Source: a virus. Taken from it: 40,014 nucleotides of DNA. Positions 29,811 to 39,957 of the stretch are shown one piece after another. Under the pieces are notes generated by a model. The model did not search any database. It had not been told where the DNA came from and saw only the letters and a program-made list of their open reading frames with translations. A program made the position numbers and the translations under genes. Each line of letters starts with the position of its first letter. The first letter of the stretch is position 1. The stretch covers positions 1 to 40,014 of the IMG/VR virus record IMGVR_UViG_3300030098_004836. One strand, given 5' to 3'.

Positions 29811-29919
29811 TTATAACTCCTTTAGCCTGTAACTTCTGGCTCATTTATAAAATAGGAAAATGACCATATCCGCACTCTCCTAAAAAAATCAAAAAAATTT
29901 TAAAAATCTGAAAAAAAAT
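29811..29919. other. AT-rich intergenic stretch
   Basis: About 110 bases with A/T runs and no ORF with a ribosome site. The minus-strand sequence CGATTTTTTTT directly follows palindrome copy E, giving it the form of a hairpin followed by a U-run, i.e. a possible intrinsic terminator reading leftward. Confidence 0.5.
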
Positions 29920-29944
29920 CGACCTAAAGTATTACTTTAAGTCG
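29920..29944. repeat. 25-bp dispersed palindrome, copy E
   Basis: Near-perfect palindrome, only one mismatch between its 12-base arms, and the exact inverse of copy A. On the minus strand it is followed by eight T residues, so it could be a terminator for any transcript reading left from the enzyme genes. It starts 5 bases before the twin hairpins. Confidence 0.85.
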
Positions 29945-29949
29945 TTTCT

Positions 29950-30018
29950 GTAAGTCCCTTATTTTACAGGCACTTACGAGCTTTATCCTTGTAACCGCCT
30001 TATTTTACAGGTAGTTAC
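29950..30018. repeat. Twin hairpins from a 22-base direct repeat
   Basis: CCTTATTTTACAGG plus flanks occurs at 29957-29978 and 29998-30019, 41 bases apart with two changes. Each copy sits in a hairpin: GTAAGT/ACTTAC (29950-29955 with 29972-29977) and GTAAC/GTTAC (29991-29995 with 30014-30018), both enclosing a CCT/AGG stem and the same 8-base loop TATTTTAC. The third pair from the inner stem is G-C in one and C-G in the other, a compensatory swap. They follow the amidotransferase terminator in the leftward direction. Confidence 0.65.
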
Positions 30019-30055
30019 GCCGATTGGCTCAAGTGATGCTTTAACTAAAAGGCAT

Positions 30056-30090
30056 AAAAAAAAGCGGGGCTTTTACGCCCCGCAATTTTT
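30056..30090 (-). terminator. Strong bidirectional intrinsic terminator
   Basis: GCGGGGC (30064-30070) pairs with GCCCCGC (30077-30083), a 7-bp stem with a 6-base loop. It is bordered by eight A on one side and TTTTT on the other, so it works on both strands in principle. It starts right after the amidotransferase stop codon at 30091 and should end the leftward enzyme transcript. Confidence 0.9.
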
Positions 30091-30873
30091 CTAAACGTTC
30101 ATTCCGTTGAAAGCGTCGTCACATTCTACGCAAACACGATAAGACCCGTTTCCGCTCAAGTCTCTTAAGTCATTCGTTGAGACGTTACAATAATCACATT
30201 TTTCAAGCTTAGCAAAATCGTCTGTAATACCGCTAAATTTAGACTTTTTAAGCTTTAATGACTTACCCTTAGGCTTTAACGTTATCGGCTTGTAATTGTA
30301 GCCGTAAGACCACCCACAAGCGACCGCACCGCCCGAAGACTTGTAACTGTTATTCGAATACCAAACGTTTCCGTTCCAATGTCCTAAATTCTCGTTAATA
30401 ATTGTGAAATCATTTTGAGAATTTAAGAAGACAAGTTTAGAATGTCCGATAAAATCGCCAATTAGCTTTCTTGTTGCTTTGTAGCTTAAGAAATCGGTCG
30501 GCAAATCTTGTAAGATATCTCTATTAAAAACTTGAGTATCTGACAGTTTTTTATCGTCTTTAACGTTGTGAATCATACCGTTATGAGCAAAAACCAAGTC
30601 TTCCGACACCTTAAACGGATGCACGTTAAAAGTGCCTTCATTCGTGCCGTGTGTACTCAGTCTAAAATGCACAATAAAATTTGACTCTTGATTGTGCAAA
30701 ACGTCGCCCTCGTACTGTTTAAAAAACTTAGAAAACTTTCTAAATTTTTTAGTTGTGATTTTGCCGTCTCTGACAAAGCTATATCCGACCCCGTCACGAT
30801 TGCCGTTAAAAGCCGTTTGCAATGATTCCTTTTCGATATGTCCGTCTTTCTTTTTAAGTATTAGTAAACACAT
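30091..30873 (-). CDS. Class II glutamine amidotransferase with C-terminal zinc ribbon
   Basis: A 260-residue Ntn-type glutaminase. C2 directly after Met is the nucleophile; further family motifs are NRDGVGYSF (N25, D27), VHFRLSTHG (R71), NVHPF (H85) and FAHNG (N98-G99). It would release ammonia from glutamine and hand it to a partner enzyme, here most likely the neighbouring amidoligase. The C-terminus carries C226-x2-C229 and C248-x2-C251, a zinc ribbon. The ribosome site is AAGGGG. Codon use is richer in CpG and in GAC/ACG codons than other genes. It ends at a strong terminator and is preceded by a hammerhead ribozyme. Confidence 0.85.
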   Translation of the reverse strand: MCLLILKKKDGHIEKESLQTAFNGNRDGVGYSFVRDGKITTKKFRKFSKFFKQYEGDVLHNQESNFIVHFRLSTHGTNEGTFNVHPFKVSEDLVFAHNGMIHNVKDDKKLSDTQVFNRDILQDLPTDFLSYKATRKLIGDFIGHSKLVFLNSQNDFTIINENLGHWNGNVWYSNNSYKSSGGAVACGWSYGYNYKPITLKPKGKSLKLKKSKFSGITDDFAKLEKCDYCNVSTNDLRDLSGNGSYRVCVECDDAFNGMNV

Positions 30874-30992
30874 TGTTCACCCCTTTGAAAACTTATTGTT
30901 TCCCGTTAATTGTCTGTTATTTTGTTATCTGTTATTATCCTTCACGTTTCGACCTCGTCCGTCGGATAATCAATTTATGTCAAAAAGCTTTC
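30874..30992 (-). other. Leader between ribozyme and amidotransferase gene
   Basis: The 120-base stretch downstream of the ribozyme cut (on the minus strand) has three ATAACA repeats near 30915-30940, and no ORF. It would be the 5' leader with a 5'-OH end if the ribozyme cleaves. It contains the ribosome site for 30873. Confidence 0.5.
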
Positions 30993-31067
30993 GGTCTGTC
31001 TCATCAGTTCGGGGCGACCACCCCACCGAAGACCCGCCAAAATCGACTAAATAAGGCGGGTTTCGAC
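30993..31067 (-). ncRNA. Type II hammerhead ribozyme
   Basis: On the minus strand, 5' to 3': GTC (31067-31065), GAAA (31064-31061), stem III CCCGCC (31060-31055) with GGCGGG (31038-31033) and a 16-base loop, U (31032), C17 (31031), stem I TTCGG (31030-31026) ... CCGAA (31012-31008), core CTGATGA (31007-31001) and GAC (31000-30998) that pairs with the opening GTC as stem II. All invariant core residues (CUGAUGA, GAAA, UH) and the 10.1-11.1 G-C pair are present. Stem II can be extended by CT/AG and GG/CC with bulges. The permutation with open stem II defines type II. Predicted cut: between 31031 and 31030. Confidence 0.9.
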
Positions 31068-31093
31068 TTTAGCCTTGTTAGGCTATGGGAAAC

Positions 31094-31127
31094 GGGCGAA
31101 ACGGCTTTAAAATAACCATATTCGCCC
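31094..31127 (-). other. Hairpin after the amidoligase stop
   Basis: GGGCGAA (31094-31100) pairs with TTCGCCC (31121-31127), 7 bp with a 20-base loop. It has no U-run on the transcribed side and lies between the amidoligase stop and the ribozyme. A second perfect hairpin, TAGCCT-TGTT-AGGCTA at 31070-31085, follows. Together they would protect the 3' end of the amidoligase message after self-cleavage. Confidence 0.65.
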
Positions 31128-31135
31128 AAAAACCG

Positions 31136-32686
31136 CTAAATCCTCACACGTTGAGCGGGGAAGTTCAAAAAGCTTTCTCCCCAATTTTGAGCCTTTACCC
31201 AAGAAACCAAGTTCTCAAATTTGCCCGACTCCTCGACGTGTTTCCAATATTTTTTAAAGTCTAAAAAGTTCGTCAAGTCTGAGACCTTCGCCCACTCTCT
31301 CATCGACTCGGCAAACTCAATATTTTTTCTGAACGTTTGTTCATTCATTGAAGACCTAAATATTCGTAGTTCTAACGTCTGACGATTTGAAAAGTTAGTT
31401 GCCAAATATCTGTCGTCCCCGACCGCTAACGTCTTAAGGCTTGCGAAATCTGTCGTCCCGTTGTTTCTGTCATATCTAAACTGATACGTCAAAGTCTCGG
31501 AAACCATTCCCGCAATATTATCCGAGAATTTAGCCCATTGACGTAATTTATCCGCCGAACGTTGAGACACTTTAAAAGCAAACCCTTTCCAATGATTTAA
31601 GAATTTGGCGATTTTGTACTGATTCAGACCCGACATTGTCGAACGGTTTAAGTGGACGTGAATCCCGCAAGATTTCGACACGTTCCACCCTAAAATCTGA
31701 CCTCTCAATTTGAACAGTTCTTCGAAGCCGTAAGACGTGAAAAACTCGTAACTCATCGGGTGAGATACAATCTCGACACCCGTTCGACCGTTGCCGTTAA
31801 TTGAGCCGTCGTTTACACAAAACAAGAATCCGCCTTCTAATGTGTTATTAATTTTTGAGACGACTTTTTGTTGGTCAAATCTCGTCAAGCCTTCTTTGAA
31901 TTGTACCTCTAATTCAAAGCCAAGTAAATCTTTATCGGCTCTTAAATTCTCTCTAACGATAGACCCGTTTAAAACGTCCCAACAAAATAATTCGGGTTTA
32001 TGCCCATATCCACGAATACCCGTTGGTATATCGTAATCACAATCCCGACAAATCCCGCCGTCTGTCTCAGTTTGAAGAAGGTCGTCACGATGAAAACGGT
32101 CTCCGCACGATATACAATCCGAGAATAAACTCTCATAATTTGAAAGTTCATATATTCGACCGTTTGCCGACGTCGAATTAAAATTCTCAACGTTGTAATA
32201 TCGCCCGTCAGATGCACATCTAAAAAATTGGCTCATATATTTACGGTCAATTTTATGAGCCGTGACCGTTCTTACACCGTCCCCGCCTTCTATTCTATTT
32301 AAAACAAACGTCCCCCTCTGATAAATAAAAGTCTCCTCAGAAGACACACCGCAAACGACGGGTAAGGCTCTCAAGTAATCTGTATCGCCGACCTCAAAAA
32401 ATCCGCCTATAAATCTATCAATTAAAAACGTGTTAAATTGGTTTTCAATCGAAGACGTTAGACTTGAAACCTCTCTTGATACGTCTATTAATTGCTCAAA
32501 ATCTATATAGGCTAAGCCGTGAGGCAATCCAATTTCGTGAATCCCGTCGTCGTTAGTGATTCGCAAACCGTGTATCTTACTATATGTCCGCCCTTCGATT
32601 GTTGCGATACCGTAACGTCTTGTCCCGTCTACGTTTCCGTTAATGATGCTTAATTTAGTTCCTTTAATATATATTTGGTTTCCCAT
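31136..32686 (-). CDS. Amidoligase (COOH-NH2 ligase, glutamine-synthetase-like fold) with zinc ribbon
   Basis: ATG 32686 is chosen for its AAGGAG 5 bases upstream; an in-frame start at 32746 would put the start at the likely transcription start. The 516-residue protein has an N-terminal domain (1-185), a zinc ribbon (C191-x2-C194, C213-x2-C216) and then the amidoligase core: LGFELEVQF (256-263), NDGSI (292-296), GVEIVSHP (303-310), SCGIHVHLNRS (339-349) and LELRIFRSS (438-446), the motifs expected for the ATP/Mg2+ site. Such enzymes join amines to carboxylates in peptides or proteins, often with a glutaminase partner. The target is unknown. Confidence 0.85.
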   Translation of the reverse strand: MGNQIYIKGTKLSIINGNVDGTRRYGIATIEGRTYSKIHGLRITNDDGIHEIGLPHGLAYIDFEQLIDVSREVSSLTSSIENQFNTFLIDRFIGGFFEVGDTDYLRALPVVCGVSSEETFIYQRGTFVLNRIEGGDGVRTVTAHKIDRKYMSQFFRCASDGRYYNVENFNSTSANGRIYELSNYESLFSDCISCGDRFHRDDLLQTETDGGICRDCDYDIPTGIRGYGHKPELFCWDVLNGSIVRENLRADKDLLGFELEVQFKEGLTRFDQQKVVSKINNTLEGGFLFCVNDGSINGNGRTGVEIVSHPMSYEFFTSYGFEELFKLRGQILGWNVSKSCGIHVHLNRSTMSGLNQYKIAKFLNHWKGFAFKVSQRSADKLRQWAKFSDNIAGMVSETLTYQFRYDRNNGTTDFASLKTLAVGDDRYLATNFSNRQTLELRIFRSSMNEQTFRKNIEFAESMREWAKVSDLTNFLDFKKYWKHVEESGKFENLVSWVKAQNWGESFLNFPAQRVRI

Positions 32687-32752
32687 TTTTACTCCTTTCT
32701 CTCGTCGAGAATTTGTTATTGTTTCGTTAATCTTGCCGTCAATCATACCTAT

Positions 32753-38799: not shown

Positions 38800-39957
38800 A
38801 TGTTTAACTTAACTTTTGAAGGTCAAAATCCTTGGATTCAATCTGGTGTTGATTTTAATGTCACATCAAGAATTCAGATGAATTTGTCCGCAACAAACAA
38901 TGTTGCACTTGCTGGTGGTTTACAGGACTCTGATGCTGCTACTGCTTCGCTTCAGGAATTTATTCCCGAAATATGGGGTGCATCAATACAAGACTATATG
39001 GTAAAAAATCTTGTATTCGGAGCGCTTTGTAACGACCAATCAGCTTTAGTTGCAGGCGGTGGAGACAGAATCCATCTACCAAGACATAGTGAATTAACTG
39101 CATCTGACACCTACGGTGGCGGAACAGTTGCTGTAGAAACTTTGATTGGAACAAATTTAGCCTTTAGTGCAACTGGCGATGCTGAAGATGCTTACACTTT
39201 AGACATCAATCAAGGTATTCATAGTGCAATTTCAATCACAGATGTTGCGAAAGTACAATCAAGCTATGATGTAATGAATCTTTATACATCTAAACTTGGT
39301 TATGCCTTAGGTAAAAAAATCGACCAGTATATAGCTACATTATTGTTTCAGGCTGTTTCTTTCAATTATGCGGGCGCAACAGCCGATGGAAATAGTGCAG
39401 GAAACACAATCGAACTAAATGATGCTCACGATGAACAACATATAGAGGCAGTTGGTGTTTCTAATATGCTACAAGCTATATATGAAAATGATAGTAATAT
39501 TGAGGACTATGTAATGATTCTTGTTCCTAAAGTATATGCAAGTCTATTTAAGTTAGCTGACTTTGCAAGATACGATGGAATTGGAAACTCGTTAGGCAGT
39601 CAAGTTCCTTTTATAAGCGGCTTTGCGGGCAAGCTTGGTGGGGTTGAAGTTATTGTATCTAATAACTTTATGCACTACTCTTCAGGCTCAACTTTAGCTC
39701 AAACATCAACCCCTAAAGGAAACTTTAGTTCAAATAGTGTTGATGATGAAAGTGAATTCCTATTGGGTTACTTAGTTCATAAAGATGCTATGCATATTGC
39801 ATACTCTTCTGGATTGAAAGCAAGAGTTCAAAGTGACTACCACCTACCTTCATTATCTACAAGATTTGTTGCAGATAGCGTTTATGGTGCTTTAGTTACT
39901 GGAAATACTACAGCAGGAAACAAAAAAGTTTTCGCATTAGTTAGTCCAGCTTCATAG
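38800..39957 (+). CDS. Major capsid protein, complete copy
   Basis: A 385-residue protein with an AGGAG ribosome site. It begins MFNLTFEGQNPWIQSGVDFN and includes QEFIPEIWGASIQDYMVKNL, a pattern of HK97-fold capsid proteins of marine phages ('f.pe.w..e....l.....f'), and later SSYDVMNLYTSKLGYALGKK and the C-terminal FALVSPAS. It follows the scaffold gene. Identity is supported by context and by being the most conserved part of the window between its two copies. The partial copy at 1-992 is homologous but different. Confidence 0.9.
   Translation: MFNLTFEGQNPWIQSGVDFNVTSRIQMNLSATNNVALAGGLQDSDAATASLQEFIPEIWGASIQDYMVKNLVFGALCNDQSALVAGGGDRIHLPRHSELTASDTYGGGTVAVETLIGTNLAFSATGDAEDAYTLDINQGIHSAISITDVAKVQSSYDVMNLYTSKLGYALGKKIDQYIATLLFQAVSFNYAGATADGNSAGNTIELNDAHDEQHIEAVGVSNMLQAIYENDSNIEDYVMILVPKVYASLFKLADFARYDGIGNSLGSQVPFISGFAGKLGGVEVIVSNNFMHYSSGSTLAQTSTPKGNFSSNSVDDESEFLLGYLVHKDAMHIAYSSGLKARVQSDYHLPSLSTRFVADSVYGALVTGNTTAGNKKVFALVSPAS

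Follow-up and report, generated by a model that had tools for sequence, protein, structure and literature searches.

A zinc-ribbon amidoligase and a class II glutaminase encoded as a two-gene unit with an intervening predicted hammerhead ribozyme in a viral genome

Genes for an Amidoligase_2 protein and a class II glutaminase have already been described side by side in phages. In the podoviruses PaP3 and PSA-HP1, they belong to a larger set of genes named the "peptidoglycan modification cassette", for which a role in resistance via wall modification has been proposed (PMC5498523). In phages of OM43 bacteria, the pair is listed among auxiliary genes, with functions yet to be explored (PMC10580990). 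Separately, hammerhead ribozymes have been reported between genes of phage transcripts in prophages, where they are thought to cut these transcripts into shorter mRNAs (Perreault 2011, PMC3088659). Here we analyse such a pair in the 40,014-base IMG/VR virus record IMGVR_UViG_3300030098_004836 (the whole of which is hereafter called the window). A first-pass annotation of this record had read the pair as a complete system for forming amide bonds, and had taken the zinc ribbon in each protein to suggest a shared scaffold or target.

Two enzyme genes at the head of the early module

Reading leftward, the window carries a small terminase gene, the amidoligase gene (31136..32686, minus strand), a gap of 262 bases, the glutaminase gene (30091..30873, minus strand) and an intrinsic terminator (30064..30083, minus strand; a 7-bp all-GC stem followed by T8), which lies directly after the glutaminase gene and closes the unit. 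The amidoligase gene is the first of the leftward early module, and the pair lies beside the terminase genes where the early genes begin. Downstream of the terminator, positions 29900-30060 hold short repeated motifs (CCTGTAAAATAAGG, present twice, and the inverted repeat CGACTTAAAGTAATACTTTAGGTCG), which are possibly regulatory or part of an origin. Two major head protein genes, 80% identical, are found at the two ends of the record (30-992 and 38800-39957). The one at 30-992 has no start, so the record probably represents almost a whole genome, with the cut falling within a tandem pair of head-protein genes.

The amidoligase reading frame extends upstream to an ATG at 32746, but it is the ATG at 32686, the start assumed in the first-pass annotation, that is closely preceded by AAAGGAG, within a Shine-Dalgarno-like sequence read directly from the strand (32692..32699, minus strand). 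A start at 32686 gives a protein of 516 amino acids and the numbering C191/C194/C213/C216 for its ribbon cysteines; the coordinates and cysteine numbering of the first-pass annotation were exact for both genes. The protein matches PF12224 (Amidoligase_2) with 26.2 bits (cut-off 22, E 9e-6). An AlphaFold model built from 33 relatives is of poor quality in the stretch preceding residue 145 and of good quality from that residue on, and its residues 239-505 (31172..31972, minus strand, as delimited by the structural alignment and conserved columns) match YbdK, plant glutamate-cysteine ligase and glutamine synthetases (VIA Z 11.7 to about 10); Foldseek alone gave a best E of only 1e-3. Eight residues (E260, D293, E305, H343, H345, R376, E439 and R441) are invariant across the 33 aligned relatives, and E258 is present in 32 of them. 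The GxHxH and ExR motifs of the protein are those known from the active site of glutamine synthetase. The protein is thus an Amidoligase_2 member with a predicted glutamine-synthetase fold, and its catalytic residues look intact.

For the glutaminase (260 amino acids, nucleophile Cys2), the window protein alone reaches 23 bits against GATase_6 and 21.5 bits against GATase_4, just short of the respective cut-offs of 27 and 23, and it is the family that provides firm evidence. GATase_4 matches 37 of 40 family members (E up to 0.05), the family profile finds GlmS with an E of 1.5e-6, and the structural model (pLDDT 86) matches the GlmS glutaminase domain (1xff) with a Foldseek E of 1e-7; EgtC is also among the fold matches. 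Cys2 directly follows the initiator Met in all 40 relatives, and R71, T74, G76, N98, G99 and D112, which are GlmS-type glutamine-binding residues, are equally invariant. We conclude that this gene encodes a class II glutamine amidotransferase with a GlmS-like fold. Both family assignments proposed in the first-pass annotation are therefore borne out by profile and fold comparisons, with catalytic residues conserved rather than mutated in the 33 and 40 relatives.

Distribution of the pair and of its zinc ribbons

Searches of viral contigs with the single proteins returned no close relatives, and relatives were reached only through the glutaminase alignment, the first amidoligase alignment being too divergent for use in scanning. 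This alignment alone fetched 80 viral contigs, 70 of which have at least 1,200 bases upstream of the glutaminase gene. An amidoligase gene lies directly upstream, on the same strand, in 68 of these 70 loci (the exceptions being L045 and L060). The loci were picked by the glutaminase alone, and an adjacency this frequent is not due to chance. In most relatives, the two reading frames overlap by a few bases, and the gaps mostly range from -10 to 35 bases. In addition, protein distances of the two partners are correlated (r 0.91 for 33 pairs, with none of 2000 permutations above 0.31), a parallel divergence which co-inheritance of linked genes alone could produce. Strict gene order, overlapping frames and this correlation all favour the idea of a complete amide-forming system, of which the transfer of ammonia between the two proteins is the part that we infer.

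The pair is present in phages of OM43 bacteria, in mycobacteriophages and in a spring podovirus; named phages carrying it are MEP401, MEP402, Marvin and its relatives, and ctgrD200. It is also recognisable in 29 of 37 loci from bacterial genomes, and integrase and prophage-tail genes are found among the neighbours of the bacterial loci examined. One bacterial reading frame (L099) spans both genes. Compared with L095, its amidoligase carries a frameshift in the tail, and its glutaminase keeps its own Met-Cys start, so we treated this apparent natural fusion as an artefact. Some glutaminase relatives lack a recognisable amidoligase, and large ORFs of unknown family stand directly or nearly directly upstream of them (L119:6551-7999, L123:6733-8001 and L104:5810-7327); these are possibly very divergent ligases. 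A Mur ligase beside Bifidobacterium glutaminases was also considered and was rejected, the adjoining ORFs having no Pfam match.

Each window protein carries a ribbon predicted from CxxC pairs, C191/C194/C213/C216 in the amidoligase (32039..32116, minus strand) and C226/C229/C248/C251 at the C-terminus of the glutaminase (30121..30198, minus strand). Within the aligned viral relatives, the amidoligase ribbon is nearly universal (C191, C194 and C216 in 33 of 33, C213 in 32 of 33), whereas that of the glutaminase is kept in 31 of 40 and missing in nine. Many relatives have further ribbons before that of the amidoligase, with up to 18 CxxC motifs by a crude count (L004, whose amidoligase has several CxxC motifs, was cut too early), and two relatives match LIM. 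In eight loci (L016, L018, L037, L044, L046, L049, L055 and L057), the amidoligase follows a tandem array of 16-18 CxxC motifs, that is about eight to nine LIM-like ribbons, and we found no description of such an arrangement of CxxC array and amidoligase domain. Ribbonless amidoligases are found in 16 of the 29 bacterial-genome pairs, in Bacteroidales prophages, and in PaP3. The ribbon is thus a trait of one large viral branch rather than of the chemistry. The ribbon of the viral amidoligases is near-universal, but as that of the glutaminase is optional and ribbonless pairs exist in gut prophages, the proposal of a shared scaffold or target is supported only in part. The best solved match of the ribbon profile is ribosomal protein eL37 (E 0.009, a weak lead that is not significant for function), and the glutaminase ribbon weakly resembles the zinc domain of ClpX (E 0.05), which is again a lead only.

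A predicted hammerhead ribozyme in the intergenic gap

Beyond what the first-pass annotation had noted, a type II hammerhead ribozyme (30990..31068, minus strand), predicted to be self-cleaving, lies in the intergenic gap. It matches RF02276 with 57.3 bits (cut-off 37, E 2e-9) and contains both the CUGAUGA and GAAAC cores. It is also found by an independently written stem-and-core descriptor, for which the control gave two matches per 2.67 Mb of reversed sequence; RNA folding alone does not single it out (z -1.2). From the core, the predicted cut falls between 31031 and 31030, 157 bases before the glutaminase ATG.

A second case is provided by the related phage contig L010 (IMGVR_UViG_3300030117_004994), in which the amidoligase-glutaminase gap of 114 bases holds a type I hammerhead-like sequence. 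This sequence is one of seven of type I on the same strand (L010:1724-7039, approximately G004:10048-15363), which occupy, one per gap, the gaps around six consecutive early genes, the pair included. The strict descriptor accepts six of them but not the copy in the amidoligase-glutaminase gap, in which the base of stem II contains a mismatch, and two of the seven are just under the Rfam cut-off (31.4 and 30.9 bits, cut-off 34). When the L010 stem I sequence was scanned in viral contigs, no other contig had more than one copy; viral contigs contained no further exact copy of the core of the window ribozyme.

We rejected the possibility that a ribozyme is a constant part of the pair. Most gaps are limited to -10 to 35 bases, several longer gaps have no recognised ribozyme, and the PaP3 cassette gave no hammerhead match with Rfam. 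As most other relatives have no room for it, the hammerhead is a recurrent addition. One relative phage contig contains a different type of RNA element, a group I intron (L016:11262-11623; Rfam RF00028, 75.7 bits).

Possible reactions and targets, and comparison with known systems

Of 43 non-redundant viral loci, nine have an ATP-grasp ligase close to the pair and six have a gamma-glutamyl cyclotransferase there, both in keeping with amide or peptide-bond chemistry; other common neighbours are replication genes. PaP3 has the full set, with a COOH-NH2 ligase, the amidoligase, the glutaminase, an ATP-grasp protein and a gamma-glutamyl cyclotransferase. These neighbours, the full set of PaP3 and the published label of its cassette lead us to favour glutamine-dependent amidation of peptide-type carboxylates. 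Based on sequences and models, the two proteins probably form a two-component amidoligase that depends on glutamine and is produced early in infection. The glutaminase would free ammonia from glutamine, and the amidoligase would phosphorylate a carboxylate with ATP and turn it into an amide. The ribbon block before the catalytic domain of the amidoligase would most likely hold the substrate or a partner, and the target would be a host component with peptide-type carboxylates. The hammerhead probably separates the two messages, and after the cut the glutaminase message would keep a 157-base leader and a 5'-hydroxyl end.

Two kinds of target, a peptidoglycan precursor or a host protein, appear about equally likely, each being plausible at somewhat less than even confidence. 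The pair may amidate or re-link cytoplasmic precursors of peptidoglycan, so that the wall of the infected cell resists lysis from outside or superinfection. This reading is consistent with the naming of the PaP3 and PSA-HP1 cassette (PMC5498523), which is itself a prediction, with the match of three flanking ATP-grasp proteins to a D-Ala-D-Ala ligase domain, and with the fact that all named bacterial hosts found are walled bacteria. However, the window has neither ATP-grasp protein nor cyclotransferase, cell-wall ligases do not typically come with zinc-ribbon arrays, and a structural relative of the amidoligase is present in a giant virus of protists. Alternatively, the ribbon block may dock a host protein (e.g. 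one of the ribosome or of RNA polymerase), the carboxylates of which would be amidated or conjugated to hijack the cell. Ribbon cysteines conserved as strongly as catalytic residues, arrays of CxxC motifs and LIM matches before the catalytic domain, and the early position of the pair all argue for such docking, to which the eL37 likeness adds a weak lead that is not significant evidence of function. On the other hand, the pairs of Bacteroidales prophages are otherwise recognisable although they have no ribbon, and the PaP3 amidoligase has none either. An extended version of this second reading, which we consider unlikely, is that a zinc-ribbon-guided, glutamine-fed amidoligase amidates one specific host protein early, that the ribozyme splits the messages and that the approximately nine tandem ribbons of some relatives are interchangeable docking modules.

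It is also possible, if doubtful, that the two proteins share no ammonia. The amidoligase would then couple a carboxylate to an amino acid or another amine, as its best fold matches include glutamate-cysteine ligases, whose amine substrates are not ammonia, and the Ntn protein would be a separate EgtC-like amidase trimming or recycling gamma-glutamyl products. The presence of EgtC among the glutaminase fold matches and of gamma-glutamyl-bond enzymes near some pairs is in line with this reading, but the GlmS-type residues that bind glutamine do not vary, GlmS ranks first among the matches by both sequence and fold, and gene order and coupling suggest a single complex. Finally, CxxC ribbons are common in nucleic-acid-binding proteins, and class II glutaminases participate in some phage 7-deazaguanine pathways, so that the ribbons might bind nucleic acid of the phage or the host, a base of which the pair would modify. 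We regard this as very improbable, as the scanned window ORFs include no other recognised gene for base modification and none recurs around the pair.

In very different phages, the pair stands among the early genes as a unit of two genes in strict order, the target of which has so far only been guessed. The two-gene form of the window is the smallest version and therefore a good system for finding the substrate, and the catalytic residues of the pair offer clean dead mutants. If a host protein is amidated, this would represent a new mode of host takeover by phages. In addition, a ribozyme between two subunits offers a direct test of whether the ratio of two enzyme parts is set by self-cleaving RNAs in phages.

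With regard to hammerheads, those described in prophages flank other genes (Perreault 2011, PMC3088659), whereas in the window a single type II copy splits the amidoligase-glutaminase pair. The podovirus cassette (PaP3, LUZ24-like phages and PSA-HP1; PMC5498523, PMC3890496) resembles the window in having an Amidoligase_2 gene followed by a class II glutaminase gene, but it adds a second COOH-NH2 ligase, an ATP-grasp protein and a gamma-glutamyl cyclotransferase, and its PaP3 amidoligase lacks the ribbon of the window protein. As no window ORF matched the ATP-grasp or gamma-glutamyl cyclotransferase profiles, we class the locus as the two-gene core and not as a peptidoglycan modification cassette. 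The OM43 phages MEP401 (gp05-06) and MEP402 (gp06-07) (PMC10580990) share with the window the genes, their order and early position, a single amidoligase ribbon and all catalytic residues. They differ by a 10-base gene overlap, which contains no ribozyme, and by a different, ribbonless C-terminal part of the glutaminase. Mycobacteriophage Marvin (gp105-gp106, with 19 related records) has the pair in the same order, with Cys-rich ribbons in both proteins as in the window, but its ribbon arrangement is different and its gap of 79 bases shows no ribozyme by descriptor scan. Such pairs occur in phages, as stated in the first-pass annotation. As the pair is found in OM43 phages, in Marvin and in prophages, and has already been described in print, the window pair adds a member to a known type rather than a new type.
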